21,272 nucleotides of DNA from a virus. The DNA lies in the IMG/VR virus record IMGVR_UViG_3300028388_000146, positions 1 to 21,272 of that record. The stretch is one strand, 5' to 3'. The notes beneath the pieces are model-generated. The model saw only the letters and a program-made list of their open reading frames with translations, made no database searches and had not been told where the DNA came from. Below, one piece after another: positions 5,208 through 21,272 of this stretch; position 1 is the first letter of the stretch, and each line of letters opens with the position of its first letter. The position numbers and the translations under genes are program-made.

Positions 5208-5969
5208 TCAGCCTCCGAATGCTAGTGAGAGGTAATCGAACAAGCCCGGAGTTCTTGATGTGGTCTGTGTCTGCGGGACAGGCGCCGCACCAAGCGCAGA
5301 AGCCAAGAACCCAAGAGACCTTTCCGGGAATGACGAGTAGCCTTCAAACTGGCCGCGTGCCTGATCAAATATCTGCTGGTTAAGCAGTTGCTGCAGGTTA
5401 CCTTGCTGCATGAGGTCTTGCTGTAGGTTTCTACCCATACCAAACGCCTGCTGAGACAGGTTTCCTAGCTGACCTGCTGCCGCGAGTCTCTGGCCTGCGC
5501 CGGTTAGTCCCGCGCTCTGGTTGGCTAGGTCTGCACGCAAAGTATTGGCAATGTCCTGACCAGCCATCTGCTGTGCATTCTGGAAGCCACCCAGTCGAAG
5601 ATTAGCCGCCGTGCGTGCCGCCTGCTGCATAGCTGCTTCGTTAGCCTGCGACTCTAGAATCGCTGATCGAGAGCCACCAAACGCACCCGCGCGTTGAGCT
5701 TGAGAAGCCAACTGATTGGCTTGCATCTGACGCGCCTGCTCGATATCCCCCAGAGACTGCTGAACCACAGTTTGCTCAAACGGGTTGAAGTAGGGTGTTA
5801 AATTAGTCTGTCCGATCTGCCCTGCTTGTACTTGTGCAGGCTGGTAGCCCATGCCTGCCGCTGTGCCCATCATGGCGCCGGTTTGACCCATTTGAGCCTG
5901 CTGGAATACGTTGGGCTGTCCTGCGGCCTGTCCTGCGGGCTGCGCCCCGCCTTGTGCTGATCCCGCCAT
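5208..5969 (-). CDS. Putative DNA transfer / internal virion protein (253 aa)
   Basis: A Gln/Ala/Gly-rich protein of 253 residues. The first 55 residues are low complexity. A phage-typical block follows: YFNPFEQTVVQQSLGDIEQA at about residues 60-79, then a Gln-rich helix leading to QRAGAFGGSRSAILES at 92-107. This 'NP(Y/F)xxxVV...DI...AGAFGGSR' signature is common in phage proteins next to ejection genes and sometimes labelled DNA transfer or tail protein. The rest is a long Gln/Leu/Ala helix ending in an aromatic C-terminus (LFDYLSLAFGG). It starts at a TAATG junction with the 165-residue gene. The two neighbouring Gly/Gln-rich proteins may be partners. Family resemblance is clear to me; the exact role is inferred. 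Confidence 0.6.
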   Translation of the reverse strand: MAGSAQGGAQPAGQAAGQPNVFQQAQMGQTGAMMGTAAGMGYQPAQVQAGQIGQTNLTPYFNPFEQTVVQQSLGDIEQARQMQANQLASQAQRAGAFGGSRSAILESQANEAAMQQAARTAANLRLGGFQNAQQMAGQDIANTLRADLANQSAGLTGAGQRLAAAGQLGNLSQQAFGMGRNLQQDLMQQGNLQQLLNQQIFDQARGQFEGYSSFPERSLGFLASALGAAPVPQTQTTSRTPGLFDYLSLAFGG

Positions 5970-6466
5970 TATCGTGACCCCCCGCCTAAGTTTGGAGGTA
6001 GCATGCCGCCCATACCAAACGGCCCGTAACCGCCGAATGGCCCGTAACCACCGCCCGGACCCATTTGATTAAGCAAGCCACCTGCCCCGCCGGCCTGTGG
6101 GCCAGTGAACAATCGATTAAATGATGCCGCCTGTGCCGGCTGATTGGCAGCCAACTCAGATAGCGCCTGCTCGAACATCTGCCCGGTGCCATAACCCTGA
6201 ACGCCACCAAAGTCCTGCGCCTCTGGCATGCCAGCGGTAACGTCCATCTGCGGAGCTAAGCCAAAGGCCGCAGCAGCGTCTGCAGTAGACTGCATGGCTT
6301 GTGTCTGCATAGGGGTGAACGCCGCCACAGAAGGCCCGTAGTAGGGCATGTAACCGACCTGTGCAAGCTGTTCAGCGCGTTGCAAATTGCGAGAAGCCGG
6401 GCCTTGTATCCAGCTTGGAATCTCGACTTCCGTTTTTTGACTACCGCCTTTTCCACCACCTGACAT
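5969..6466 (-). CDS. Gly-rich phage structural protein (165 aa)
   Basis: A 165-residue protein. After a short Gly/Lys start, residues about 13-70 carry a recognisable phage block: EIPSWIQGPASRNLQRAEQL, then VGYMPYYGPSVAAFTPMQTQ and AMQSTADAAAAFGLAP. This block occurs in phage proteins that precede the 'AGAFGGSR' protein, as here. The C-terminal third (about 123-165) is almost entirely Gly, Pro, Phe, Tyr and Met with a repeated GGYGPFG element, so it is likely disordered. The gene follows the GNAT-like gene by one base and overlaps the next as TAATG. It may be a virion-internal protein or a chaperone for ejection proteins; the sequence does not show which. Confidence 0.55.
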   Translation of the reverse strand: MSGGGKGGSQKTEVEIPSWIQGPASRNLQRAEQLAQVGYMPYYGPSVAAFTPMQTQAMQSTADAAAAFGLAPQMDVTAGMPEAQDFGGVQGYGTGQMFEQALSELAANQPAQAASFNRLFTGPQAGGAGGLLNQMGPGGGYGPFGGYGPFGMGGMLPPNLGGGSR

Positions 6467-8970: not shown

Positions 8971-9500
8971 TACACACCACCACTAACCGACATTGTGATT
9001 GTTGCCGTATCCTGCACTGTAGACGTTGCGACGTCTCGAACAGACACGGATAAAATGACTGACGCATCGGGACCAGTAGAACTTAAGGTCCAAGACTGCG
9101 CCGATGATATCGTTGTGTACGAATTTAGCGTCCCAGTCAGCGCGCCCGTGGCCCCCGTAGCCGTAACTCTTACCTGATAGTCTGAGCCGATCCCTGTAGT
9201 GGTTGGCTCGTACCAATTTGTATCGCTGTACGTCGTTGTGTTTCCGGTAGCGGTGATTGTGCCGTTAGTGTTTAGCCTAAAGGTGACCGATGACGAACCA
9301 ATGCCAAAGTCAGACAATGAGCCGTCGTCGATTGCGACGGTAATGTTAGACGTGCCATAGAAGTCAGTAATGGCGATCTCGCCCGAGGCAGGCACTCCGG
9401 TTGCTGCTGAGTAATACTCAGATATAGCAATAGGATTAGAGCCACCAAACTCCGTTTGGATTTCGCTGAGAGATATCGCACCACTACTCTGCAAAGCCAT
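8970..9500 (-). CDS. Tail-associated protein with Ig-like C-terminus (176 aa)
   Basis: A 176-residue protein with two parts. Residues about 1-50 match a small N-terminal domain common in phage tail and fibre proteins: LQSSGAISLSEIQTEFGGSN, then ISEYYSAATGVPASGEIAI and DFYG. Residues 51-176 are Thr/Ser/Gly-rich beta sequence resembling a bacterial-type immunoglobulin fold, with strands such as SSVTFRLNTNGTITATGN and DYQVRVTATGA and an ending in ATITMSVSGG. Ig-like domains on phage tails often bind host surface carbohydrate weakly. The gene starts at a TAATG junction and is followed by another. No enzymatic signature is present. Confidence 0.65.
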   Translation of the reverse strand: MALQSSGAISLSEIQTEFGGSNPIAISEYYSAATGVPASGEIAITDFYGTSNITVAIDDGSLSDFGIGSSSVTFRLNTNGTITATGNTTTYSDTNWYEPTTTGIGSDYQVRVTATGATGALTGTLNSYTTISSAQSWTLSSTGPDASVILSVSVRDVATSTVQDTATITMSVSGGV

Positions 9501-10159
9501 TAGATGGTACCAAATGCGGTTACGTCGTTAGCTGATGTTACTGCGCCGTTTGTTCCGACCTTAAAAACATCAGTGCCGTTATATTCAAAAACAAGCTCGT
9601 TTGTATCAAGCTTTATTGTCCAGTCGCCTAGAGCAAGAGTCGTCGCTTTGACCTCCCCGGCCGCGCTGTAAATCACGCCTTTGCTGTTTACTACCGTGCC
9701 TGCTAAAGCGCCGTCTAAGACGTTTATTTCTGTCGCTGATGCCGAGATAGCATTGAGCTTGTTAAGGTTGCCTGTGGTCGCCAGAGAGCCGTCTAAGACG
9801 TTTATCTCGGCCGCTGTAGCCGTGACACCATCCATGATGTTTAGCTCAGCAGTAGACGCCGTAATTCCGTCTAGTGCGTTAAGCTCGGCCGCTGTGGCGG
9901 TTATGCCGTCGAGAGCGTTTAACTCTGAGGCAGTTGCTGTGACGCCATCAAGGATGTTCAGCTCTGCAGCCGTAGCAGTTACTGCAGTGCCGCCGACCTG
10001 CCATGAGCCTTCGGTTAGGTTAGGCTGGATTGCTGTGGTCCCGTCCAAAAGATCGTCAATAGAGTCGAAGTTGGTGTTGATCTTCGTTCCCCACGTGTCC
10101 TCTGACGCGCCGACCTCTGGCTTCGTAAGCGAATAGGTTGTGGTTGTAGTATCTGCCAT
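9500..10159 (-). CDS. Fibre-like protein with seven 13-residue repeats (219 aa)
   Basis: A 219-residue protein. Residues about 6-40 ([20 protein letters not shown] followed by [15 protein letters not shown]) form an N-terminal attachment motif common in tail fibres. Residues 62-152 are seven tandem 13-residue units of consensus ATAAELNxLDGxT; unit six is the most divergent ([13 protein letters not shown]). Such xLDG repeats are frequent in phage fibres and are thought to form slender trimeric shafts. The C-terminus is a short beta domain ([20 protein letters not shown]). It starts six bases after the previous stop. It probably forms a small fibre or a connector next to the tailspike. Direct evidence is the repeat and the N-terminal motif. 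Confidence 0.7.
9704..9976 (-). repeat. Seven tandem 39-bp (13-codon) coding repeats
   Basis: Within the 219-residue fibre-like gene, seven in-frame units of 39 bases encode ATAAELNxLDGxT variants. Units 1-5 are close to each other, unit 6 is diverged, and unit 7 partly returns to the consensus. Phase is kept exactly at 39 bases, so copy number can change without frameshift. Confidence 0.85.
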
Positions 10160-18361: not shown

Positions 18362-18392
18362 GCTTCTTGCCCTTCTTCTTACCACAAGCCAT
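18351..18392 (-). CDS. Lys-rich micropeptide (13 aa)
   Basis: A 13-codon frame, MACGKKKGKKRGK, starting at ATG 18392 in a TAATG overlap with the stop of the 79-codon gene. A strong AAGGAG ribosome binding site lies six bases upstream (18399-18404), inside the 3' end of that gene, which argues that the ATG is used. The product is nine-thirteenths Lys/Arg or Gly-adjacent basic residues with one Cys. It could be a genuine peptide, or a leader whose translation couples expression of the following overlapping Cys-rich gene. Very short length limits confidence. Confidence 0.4.
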   Translation of the reverse strand: MACGKKKGKKRGK

Positions 18393-18631
18393 TAGCTTCT
18401 CCTTGATTTGGCACCGGAACACTTCCAGCGCTTTCTCGATAGGTTGTTAGGGGTGTTGGGATCATTCTGCTTCTTCTTCGAGAGTCGCTTCTTGGTTCCT
18501 AAAGAGCGCGCGCAGTTCGAGTCGCCCTTGGTTGTCCCCGGCTTTACCTTGGCGCCCTTCTGTCCATACGAGACCTTCTTACCGGACGCTGTGGTCTTTA
18601 CTCGTGCCTTTCCTTTTCTCGGCGTAGCCAT
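18392..18631 (-). CDS. Small basic protein, 'GDSNCARS...NLSRKRWKC' family (79 aa)
   Basis: A 79-residue, strongly basic protein with two cysteines. It reads MATPRKGKARVKTTASGKKV, then SYGQKGAKVKPGTTKGDSNC and DPNTPNNLSRKRWKCSGAKS. The paired blocks 'GDS.CARS' and 'DPN.PNNLSRK.WKC' are conserved in a small phage family of unknown function that I recall from marine phages. The two Cys may bind a metal or form a bond. It starts at ATG 18631 with GAGGT five bases upstream, eight bases after the ART-domain gene ends. Basic charge suggests contact with DNA. Confidence 0.65.
   Translation of the reverse strand: MATPRKGKARVKTTASGKKVSYGQKGAKVKPGTTKGDSNCARSLGTKKRLSKKKQNDPNTPNNLSRKRWKCSGAKSRRS
18399..18404 (-). 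promoter_or_regulatory. Ribosome binding site of the 13-codon microgene
   Basis: AAGGAG on the minus strand lies six bases before ATG 18392, inside the last codons of the 79-codon gene. It is the main evidence that the tiny frame is translated. Confidence 0.6.
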
Positions 18632-18639
18632 ATTATACC

Positions 18640-20901
18640 TCAGCGGCCCATTGCAGACAGCAAGCCATCTAGCCAGTATTGGTCCGGTATCTCAAAGACA
18701 GGGCTGTATTTGTCTGTACCGGTGATCACGGCGTTTTTAGCCTCATCTAATGAGAACGGTCGTGGAGGGTTTTTAACCGGGTCCTTGGGGTTTGTCATGC
18801 GCTGCATATTTTTGCTCACTGCGCGTGGATACATGACCTCCATCGGCACCGTTTGCTCTAGGTTTCCAAAAAACTGGCCGGGCATAGCAGTGTCATATGA
18901 CTTGTGCCCCTCAAAGGCAAAAATATCTCTGTCTAAATCTGGCGTGAATAGCGAGAAGCCTGACTGATATCTCTCATCACCGATTAGCTCTGGCTTTAAC
19001 ACGGCCTCAATTGCCTCGTTATAAACGGGGAATCCACGATCTCGGTAATCTGACTTAGCCATAATGGTCGTGAATGCAGTACGGCGCTTACCGATGTTTG
19101 GGAAGTCACCGCGACCCATTACCCAATCCATTGCTTCTGGCGAATCCAATCCCGGCCAATCTTCGTACTGCGACCTCAGCTCATCGTCAAACTTCTTCTT
19201 GTCTGCCTTTGCTATCTTTAATGACGGCATCTGCTGCATCATAATCTCAGCCGGGCCGGTCGCAAAATTAGACGAGTCATCCAGCATCTTTGCGTATGCA
19301 ACCAATGGCTGACGGCCGGTTAGGTTGGCGATATCTCGATACTTTTTAAACTGTGGCTTTGCAGCGCCCAAGTTAGAAGCCCAAGCAACACCTTCCGGCC
19401 CAGTGCCAAACTTTTGAGCAAAGTCTACACCGCCCTCAATTGCCACCTGATCAGCAAGCGGAACACCGCCCACCATATCTACTAAGCCAATAGCAGAAGG
19501 ATCGCCCATGACTGGCATCAGCACGTAATTTCCTTGCGAAATCTGCTCAGGAGTCACAATACTTGGCTCAAACTCATCTAGCTGACGCGCTGTAACTGCA
19601 TCGTTTTGCGCTGCAAGATTCTCCCTAAAAGCGAAGCCCTTGCTCTGCTTAAGGTTCTTTTCGTACTTGGTGATTGCGGATTTGACTGCGCTAGGATTCG
19701 TTGCGCTATCAGGGGTTAAATAGCCCAACTCTATTAGTCTCTCAGGATCACCCTGTCGAGCACGCATAGCGCCTAATGGTAGCGCGCCTTTTAACGCTGC
19801 GGCCGCGATGTCGCCACCTACTGGTATTGCCCCTAACAGGCCTAAACCACCTAGTAGTGCTGCCTCACCGTAGTTGCCTTGCTCAAATGCATCACGAGCT
19901 TCAGCAAAACCCTTTACATCGCCTACAATCGGCGTGAAGTCAGCCAAGTTAGACAGGCTCGAAGCCATCTGGTTGGCAGTGTAGTCAGACTCAGTGGCGC
20001 CAATGTCCTTTAAGAAGTCGGCCACGTTTTGTACAGCACTATCGATTAAGCCGGGCTCGTAAGGCTCTAGCTGTGGAAGGCTTGCTAAAAACTCTGGAGT
20101 CTTAGCCTCTGCCTCTTCTGGCGCCATCAATGCTGTTAGACCTAAAGCCCCTGCCGCTGTACCGCCAAGGATGTTAGAGCCTTTGTACTCAGGGTCGAAT
20201 GCGGCAAACAAGGAGCGGACGCGAGTAGGGTCAGACGTGACAATCGTATCAGTGAAAAAAGCGTCTAACGCCTCTTGATAGCCTTCATCGCCAACCTTTA
20301 AGCCGGTCATAGCCTCGAAGGCGGGATCGAAAGCTTTATAGTTAGGGCCAACATCTGAGACGTTTTGCACAATCAATCCGGGCGATCCAAACCTGCGCGC
20401 TGTTCTCGCTAACTCATCAGTGTCGAAATCCCTTACCACGTTTAAATCGAAGATACCCCGATCAGGCTCCATAGTTCCTCTGTAGCCGGGAAGCTCGCCA
20501 AACGTGGCTAATCGCTCGCCACCCAATAAGTAGTCGGGGTTTGTGATTCTATTCCAATCGTTAAACCCTGCGTTGACGACATCAAAACCGCGAGTATCAA
20601 CAGCGAGAGGCATAATATTACCGGCACGATCTGCATAACTAGCCGCATTAACAGGCGAGCTGGACATAAAAAAGCCAGTATTGGCAGTCTTGCCGCGAGT
20701 GATTCTGTTGGGGTCTACTACGCGAATATCATCGCCACCACCATGAAAGGCGGTTGTAGGATATAAGTCTTCTTGGCGCTCAATGATGGCCTCTGGACGC
20801 ATATCAAGATCGCCCTTAGCAATGCGCTCGGCCACCTGCTCGGGATACCCGGTAGCGATTAGTTCATCAAGAATACCGCGTAAGCGTTCGCGAATTGCCA
20901 T
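18640..20901 (-). CDS. Polyvalent protein with N-terminal ADP-ribosyltransferase-like domain (753 aa)
   Basis: Residues 1-240 look like an ADP-ribosyltransferase domain of the phage polyvalent type: YPTTAFHGGGDDIRVVDPNR (47-66), then GFFMSSSPVNAASYADR (76-92), then the closing VTSDPTRVRSLFAAFDPEYK (221-240). The family equivalents are 'YHGT', 'G.yFt..p..A..YA' and 'DPsQIRS.nAaFDP'. These enzymes transfer ADP-ribose from NAD to host targets. A hydrophobic stretch follows at 245-260. The C-terminal half (about 400-753) has a block VPLADQVAIEGGVDFAQKFG and WASNLG, seen in large phage polyvalent proteins. The start ATG 20901 is chosen because GGAGG (20906-20910) precedes it at four bases; an in-frame TTG at 20925 lacks one. 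It lies between terminase and structural genes, suggesting it is packaged and injected. Activity is inferred; the usual Gln of DPsQ is Arg here. Confidence 0.6.
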   Translation of the reverse strand: MAIRERLRGILDELIATGYPEQVAERIAKGDLDMRPEAIIERQEDLYPTTAFHGGGDDIRVVDPNRITRGKTANTGFFMSSSPVNAASYADRAGNIMPLAVDTRGFDVVNAGFNDWNRITNPDYLLGGERLATFGELPGYRGTMEPDRGIFDLNVVRDFDTDELARTARRFGSPGLIVQNVSDVGPNYKAFDPAFEAMTGLKVGDEGYQEALDAFFTDTIVTSDPTRVRSLFAAFDPEYKGSNILGGTAAGALGLTALMAPEEAEAKTPEFLASLPQLEPYEPGLIDSAVQNVADFLKDIGATESDYTANQMASSLSNLADFTPIVGDVKGFAEARDAFEQGNYGEAALLGGLGLLGAIPVGGDIAAAALKGALPLGAMRARQGDPERLIELGYLTPDSATNPSAVKSAITKYEKNLKQSKGFAFRENLAAQNDAVTARQLDEFEPSIVTPEQISQGNYVLMPVMGDPSAIGLVDMVGGVPLADQVAIEGGVDFAQKFGTGPEGVAWASNLGAAKPQFKKYRDIANLTGRQPLVAYAKMLDDSSNFATGPAEIMMQQMPSLKIAKADKKKFDDELRSQYEDWPGLDSPEAMDWVMGRGDFPNIGKRRTAFTTIMAKSDYRDRGFPVYNEAIEAVLKPELIGDERYQSGFSLFTPDLDRDIFAFEGHKSYDTAMPGQFFGNLEQTVPMEVMYPRAVSKNMQRMTNPKDPVKNPPRPFSLDEAKNAVITGTDKYSPVFEIPDQYWLDGLLSAMGR

Positions 20902-20905
20902 GAAG

Positions 20906-20910
20906 CCTCC
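20906..20910 (-). promoter_or_regulatory. Ribosome binding site of the ART-domain gene
   Basis: GGAGG on the minus strand lies four bases before ATG 20901. It decides the start against the in-frame TTG at 20925, which has no such site. Confidence 0.75.
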
Positions 20911-20921
20911 AGTGTGAAGCC

Positions 20922-20933
20922 CCAATTATATCA
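20922..20933 (-). promoter_or_regulatory. TGATATAATTGG junction motif, possible extended -10 (copy 1)
   Basis: The minus strand reads TGATATAATTGG from the terminase stop codon onwards. TGnTATAAT is a perfect extended -10 promoter element; no convincing -35 is seen. The identical 12 bases occur at 6833-6844. It could drive the ART-domain gene and genes downstream, but chance cannot be excluded. Confidence 0.3.
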
Positions 20934-21272
20934 GACAATGCCCTTTAGGTTACGTCGTATGGGTTCGCCCCAGTCTGAGGTCTTCCTGTACCCGATGGCA
21001 AGGTATCTGAATGCGTCCGCGCAGTGCGATGTCCAGTCGTGTAATGGCCTCTCGGCCCAGACCTGCATGGTCTCGTTGTACTGCCGGCGGTACTGTCTCA
21101 GGCAGTCGATGCCCTTCTCGCACTTGTCCTTGTCGAAGTAACAAAGATCAAGCATAGACCTTACAGCTTGGATGCCGTCGTCTACATTCAACTGCGGGGC
21201 GATCTGTACCGGTGTCACCCGAAGGTTATCCAATACCTCTAGTCGTGACCGTCCGCTGCCCAGCTCTCGCAC
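20931..21272 (-). CDS. Terminase large subunit, C-terminal part (5' end beyond window)
   Basis: The frame is open from the window edge to a TGA at 20931-20933, giving 113 residues of C-terminus. HDWTSHCADAFRYLAIGYRK is the conserved end of the RNase H-like nuclease domain of large terminases, where the Asp of 'H..SH.ADAFRY' belongs to the metal-binding site that cuts concatemeric DNA. The preceding CLRQYRRQYNETMQVWAERP fits the same family. The ATPase domain lies outside the window. The TGA is directly followed by TATAATTGG (see the repeat entry). Confidence 0.9.
   Translation of the reverse strand: MRELGSGRSRLEVLDNLRVTPVQIAPQLNVDDGIQAVRSMLDLCYFDKDKCEKGIDCLRQYRRQYNETMQVWAERPLHDWTSHCADAFRYLAIGYRKTSDWGEPIRRNLKGIV

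Follow-up and report, generated by a model that had tools for sequence, protein, structure and literature searches.

The DNA analyzed here is a window of 21,272 nt from an uncultured, marine-type phage. On its minus strand, one open reading frame with an ATG start occupies positions 18,640–20,901 (stop codon included) and encodes a modular effector of 753 aa, a polyvalent ADP-ribosyltransferase (ART) protein, while the plus-strand translation of the same region is full of stop codons. Coordinates and length had been given correctly in the initial annotation, which left the strand unstated. The start codon at 20,901 is preceded immediately by a Shine-Dalgarno-like TGGAGG. Directly upstream, at 20,931–21,272 (minus strand), an ORF encodes the C-terminal end (113 aa) of the terminase large subunit, whose gene is truncated by the window end and encodes 428 aa when complete in relatives. 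This ORF matched PHROG terminase profiles (to 3.3e-5) and is 51% identical to an annotated phage terminase, which bears out the earlier placement of the effector gene directly after the terminase gene. A portal is also encoded within the window. The effector slot opens the late gene block, flanked by the terminase on one side and the tail genes on the other, with structural genes downstream. The next gene after the effector gene (18,392–18,631, minus strand) codes for a Lys/Arg-rich protein of 79 aa with a weak match to DUF6321. The dN/dS values amounted to 0.04–0.11 for the ART part of the effector, 0.02–0.07 for its C-terminal part, and 0.03–0.04 for the terminase. With these low values, which are similar to those of the terminase, the effector gene is under purifying selection.

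Whole-protein sequence searches in PDB, NCBIfam, and PHROGs yielded nothing useful, and a megablast search with the structural region gave no match among phages. In bacterial genomes, the terminase query retrieved only one distant relative, a beta-proteobacterial MAG (46% identity). Among isolated phages whose terminases or portals are close to those of the window, some have marine alpha-proteobacteria or Methylophilales as hosts. Besides the effector, some further features were observed on the minus strand of the window. TATAAT-like sequences occur just 5′ of the effector gene (20,895–20,935) and of the small basic gene (18,625–18,645), a tail-fibre-like protein (9,500–10,159) contains tandem repeats of the type TAAELNxLDGVTAT, and a virion-region protein (5,969–6,466) has a low-complexity C-terminal stretch, GGGYGPFGGYGPFGMGG.

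The effector starts with a helical leader (aa 1–35, RGILDELIATGYPEQVAERIAKGDLDM; 20,797–20,901, minus strand), which is conserved across ART types and marks an exchange joint. For the region that follows, the initial annotation had proposed a polyvalent-type ART domain with three motifs, and these are indeed present at aa 52–56, 76–90, and 224–230. The AlphaFold2 model of aa 1–261, built with 39 aligned relatives, reached a pLDDT of 78 and a pTM of 0.74, and it predicts that aa 46–232 (20,206–20,766, minus strand) adopt an ART fold. In VIA-align, 50 of 50 among the matches listed were ART-fold chains (Z 5.0–6.3), including AcrIF11 (6KYF), tankyrases, PARPs, MbcT, and bacterial toxins, so that the structure prediction suggested earlier as a check came out in favor of an ART. 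The best match was AcrIF11 (Z 6.3, rmsd 4.9, 118 aligned), with a tankyrase tied within 1 Z unit. Foldseek returned only weak matches, none with E below 0.001, of which the first five were all ARTs. The Pfam profile ART-PolyVal (PF18760) matched aa 48–99 below its cut-off (E 0.0014; 19.8 versus 31.2 bits), and a related module from the same slot of another phage (L018) scored above it (32.2 bits). The Z-scores themselves are moderate (5–6.3), and the assignment is made because the match list is coherent and the motifs are present. A tblastn search for the ART module among 50,697 phage records gave no match; only relatives of the C-terminal domain were found there. Overall, motifs, sub-threshold Pfam match, and predicted fold support the N-terminal module as an ART of the polyvalent kind, probably of the H-Y-[EDQ] type, for which the use of NAD+ is predicted. 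With the PF18760 ARTs (Iyer et al., 2017; PMC5512222) it shares the strand-1 HG, the strand-2 motif, and the D-x-x-x-[VI]-RS..AFDP end motif, as well as the location in a multidomain protein of a phage with terminase-portal packaging. Unlike them, it scores below the Pfam cut-off, has Phe at the strand-2 Tyr position, and lies in a slot with whole-module exchange.

The initial annotation had also pointed to a separate C-terminal domain. The motif VPLADQVAIEGGVDFAQKFG is present in this part, and aa 376–753 (18,643–19,776, minus strand) were modeled with a pLDDT of 80.8 and a pTM of 0.79. In terms of the disparate domains that are characteristic of polyvalent proteins, the effector thus combines, as judged from models, an ART with a separately folding C-terminal domain. 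S509 is invariant within a near-invariant W507-A-S509 motif. The profile libraries of Pfam, PHROG, and NCBIfam gave the domain no name, and Foldseek alone found no convincing match for the model. In VIA-align, however, eight YTH chains ranked first (Z 5.8–7.2), followed by two EVE chains (Z 4.4–4.6), with the Lon N-terminal domain at Z 3.2 and all remaining entries at 2.6 or less. YTH and EVE domains are PUA-like readers of modified bases (PMC7641849). All Z values stay below 8. We regard a PUA-like (YTH/EVE) fold with a helical insertion as a lead that has about an even chance of being correct. The predicted resemblance is one of fold: the domain has no detectable sequence similarity to YTH or EVE proteins and carries a large helical insertion that distinguishes it from them.

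Alternatively, instead of reading bases, the C-terminal domain could serve in virion targeting or as a structural part, or it could be an enzyme of another fold; we give this explanation slightly below an even chance. A Pfam scan of 23 members gave no YTH/EVE match, hhalign of the domain against 22 bacterial EVE proteins performed no better than the control, and a Z of about 7 can arise without true relationship. Furthermore, the model matched 17 entries of a viral structure library with E below 0.001, but these homologs are uncharacterized and carry no informative function name; one structural match is named “Structural protein”, and the Flavobacterium phage paper checked for it contains no virion mass spectrometry. 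On the other hand, the ten best VIA-align entries all belong to the PUA-like superfamily and score above the next one (Z 3.2). Relatives of the C-terminal domain are found in the structural gene blocks of four other phages.

Within the ART module, the candidate active site, as deduced from the alignment, consists of H53, F78, and Y89 together with D218 or D224. H53 is the candidate catalytic His of the strand-1 motif FHGGG (aa 52–56; 20,734–20,748, minus strand) and is present in 28 of the 39 relatives. F78 and Y89 belong to GFFMSSSPVNAASYA (aa 76–90; 20,632–20,676, minus strand), where position 78 is aromatic in all 39 sequences and position 89 is Tyr in 35. The 11-residue spacing between F78 and Y89 equals that of the two tyrosines in PARP/diphtheria-type ARTs. 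The two candidate acids lie in the strand-5 region DTIVTSDPTRVRS (20,212–20,250, minus strand). D224 is found in 36 of the 39 relatives and, although nearly invariant, may be structural instead of catalytic. D218, which judged from the aligned ranges lies nearer the usual place of the catalytic acid, occurs in all six modules of the window's own ART type (A2); L117 and L118, the two closest relatives outside this type, have Asn at the position. For the DPTRVRS motif at aa 224–230, it had been proposed that Arg in place of Gln might alter substrate choice or activity. This idea did not hold, since among the 39 aligned relatives Arg is the commonest residue at position 227 (R 19, N 10, Q 0), and Arg227 thus carries no message. 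In the ART types A6, A9, A14, and A15 (L013, L046, L062, L080) the strand-1 His is changed to Thr, Ser, Lys, or Arg, and it is likewise replaced in L130, L136, L144, L173, L175, and L176. Judged by their residues, some of these modules may lack activity or rely on a different site, and therefore not every ART module of the slot needs to be active.

This raises the question of whether the module in the window might be degenerate, or might serve as a scaffold that lacks catalysis, e.g., for binding NAD or nucleic acid. The Phe at the canonical strand-2 Tyr position, the ambiguous acidic position, and the sister types lacking His would fit such a role. We consider it unlikely, since all A2 modules retain H53 and Y89 at the dN/dS of 0.04–0.11, and since AcrIF11, which likewise has Phe at the strand-2 position, is an active ART whose key residues were reported as H-F-H-D and not H-Y-Y-E (PMC12421852). 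AcrIF11 therefore resembles the effector both as top structural match and in the candidate H-F-..-D type active site. It differs in being a small, single-domain anti-CRISPR, whereas the ART of the effector is the N-terminal module of a 753-aa protein that adjoins the terminase.

Phage ARTs are also present in T4, namely Alt, ModA, and ModB. Of these, Alt is packaged into the head and injected. However, Alt falls into the R-S-E clade and the polyvalent ARTs into the H-Y-D group (PMC5512222). A T4 Alt-type (R-S-E) ART was ruled out for the effector since strand-1 position 53 is His and not Arg, and the likeness to Alt drawn by the initial annotation is not supported beyond the shared superfamily.

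In order to compare the slot among related phages, loci were gathered by searching first with the effector and afterwards with a relative's terminase, and the ORF after the terminase was read. Where the terminase was at least 87% identical, measured against the L020 terminase as query, nearly all loci of sufficient length had a member of the modular family in the slot. The 43 complete proteins comprise 15 ART types (clustered at 55% identity) and 9 C-terminal types in 28 combinations. A few proteins are without ART; L079 was scored as ART-less by the script because its junction differs, though its sequence has an A11-like ART. Four proteins (L003, L055, L058, L080) have two different ART modules in tandem, each followed by a hydrophobic linker. 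The slot of L020 encodes LPD23 and a zincin-like metallopeptidase, and sister slot proteins combine ART, LPD23, and zincin. At about 70% terminase identity, some slot proteins reach 1,350–1,520 aa. In these, the C-terminal domain forms the N terminus, and behind it come regions of ART, methyltransferase-like, LPD23, and zincin-like type in changing composition; other relatives at this distance have unrelated genes in the slot. Such an arrangement corresponds to the architecture that Iyer et al. (2017; PMC5512222) described for polyvalent proteins. In L010, L065, L113, L117, and L176, a tail of similar sequence (Y-G-..-P-I-K ... GLL ... NP.A...L) was observed at the C terminus, where it ends proteins with quite different C-terminal domains and might be a packaging signal.

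The terminase-adjacent position is consistent with packaging of the effector into the head. An effector that is synthesized during infection and works inside the same host cell, either in late takeover or in the exclusion of competing phages, would fit the position as well, since the start of the late block suits any late protein and the next gene encodes a small, basic product that is not structural. Nevertheless, it is improbable that the effector acts in this way instead of being packaged and ejected: the slot architecture with LPD23 and zincin and the relatives of the C-terminal domain in structural blocks favor virion carriage, and head packaging has been inferred for such proteins (PMC5512222, PMC9503650).

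When the window was compared with twelve relatives at the DNA level, identity was seen to stop and restart near aa 35, aa 222–246, and aa 365–376. The segments adjoining these three joints mostly show 77–92% DNA identity, with unrelated sequence between them. One of the shared segments is a hydrophobic hinge (aa 306–375, DYTANQMASSLSNLADFTPIVGDVKGF...IPVGGDIAA; 19,777–19,986, minus strand), which at 77–92% DNA identity is common to proteins that differ in both their ART and their C-terminal modules. In L018, L046, L070, L071, and L080, a gene for a PAPS-reductase-like protein of 246 aa is placed between terminase and effector at the same joint. Chimeric metagenome assemblies joined at conserved linkers are extremely improbable as the source of this combinatorial pattern, for although the joints fall within conserved DNA, in which assemblers are able to switch templates, and the window's own combination (A2 + C3) was seen once, without a second contig, identical multi-module genes (L020/L021/L022/L023 and L004/L005/L012) and near-identical pairs (L016/L017, L013/L014) recur in independent metagenomes, the frames are all intact, and the segments within one pair have dS values that differ as expected from recombination. 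The ART part, and often the rest too, is thus swapped wholesale among close relatives, and each module is under strong purifying selection. Overall, the slot appears to hold an exchangeable set of anti-host enzymes. Polymorphic toxin systems likewise join constant parts to effector modules that can be exchanged, but in the effector slot exchange affects the N-terminal or central part as well as the C-terminal one.

The ART module is followed by an inter-module linker, SNILGGTAAGALGLTALMAPEEAEA (aa 242–266; 20,104–20,178, minus strand). It consists of a hydrophobic stretch rich in Gly and Ala and, behind it, (S/P/G)(E/D)(E/D)A(E/D)A, in short form (S/P)EEAEA. With a pattern written after the sites had been seen, 53 sites were counted in 73 slot proteins compared with 0.3 in shuffled versions; these do not represent 53 independent events, since most sites are homologous. 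Among the other ORFs of the loci, the pattern identified only two further family members. The telling case is that of L084, L087, and L088, in which differing versions of the linker recur between unrelated domains of one protein. In sequence, the linker resembles either the A-x-A end of a signal peptide or a site for a head protease, [SP]-x-E↓A. A search of eight related records, which are possibly fragments, for an S78-family prohead protease (Peptidase_S78) as linker processor found none, and Iyer et al. (PMC5512222) make no mention of linkers or transmembrane segments. It might be that the linker is simply a hydrophobic joint used by recombination.

Taken together, the gene is best explained as coding for an effector that is packaged into the head and ejected. 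This reading relies on position, architecture, and published precedent, since head packaging has been proposed for polyvalent ARTs (PMC5512222, PMC9503650). We consider it reasonably probable that the protein is a polyvalent-type, probably head-packaged effector with swappable ART payloads. It would be made late, packed into the head, and ejected together with the DNA, whereupon the ART module with H53, F78, Y89, and D218 or D224 would use NAD+ to ADP-ribosylate a host macromolecule. The likeliest class of targets would be host defense or takeover machinery and not one fixed protein, since close relatives replace the whole ART and yet keep each version intact; the exchange of intact modules suggests changing targets, most simply host defense. 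The C-terminal domain, which is often retained when the ART is exchanged, would probably have a shared job such as nucleic-acid binding or virion targeting, and it may be a PUA/YTH-like reader of modified bases. In a more far-reaching scheme, which we regard as very doubtful, the slot would reassemble injected effectors by recombination at linker DNA and pair an exchangeable ART with a YTH-like reader, ADP-ribosylation would be aimed at modified nucleic acid or at defense complexes bound to it, and the (S/P)EEAEA linkers would be processing sites that free the modules in virion or host.

Module exchange at this locus, the recurring linker, and a C-terminal fold that is possibly PUA/YTH-like had not been part of the initial annotation. 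ARTs are common in polyvalent phage proteins, but about 15 interchangeable types in one slot, among phages whose terminases are almost alike, constitute a natural experiment. Modules that replace one another would be expected to act on different targets, and assigning them to hosts could point to the bacterial proteins that phages most need disabled. The linker provides a clue to the processing or membrane crossing of large injected proteins and, if the fold proves true, it would be unexpected to find a modified-base reader of the YTH-like kind in a phage protein that is injected.
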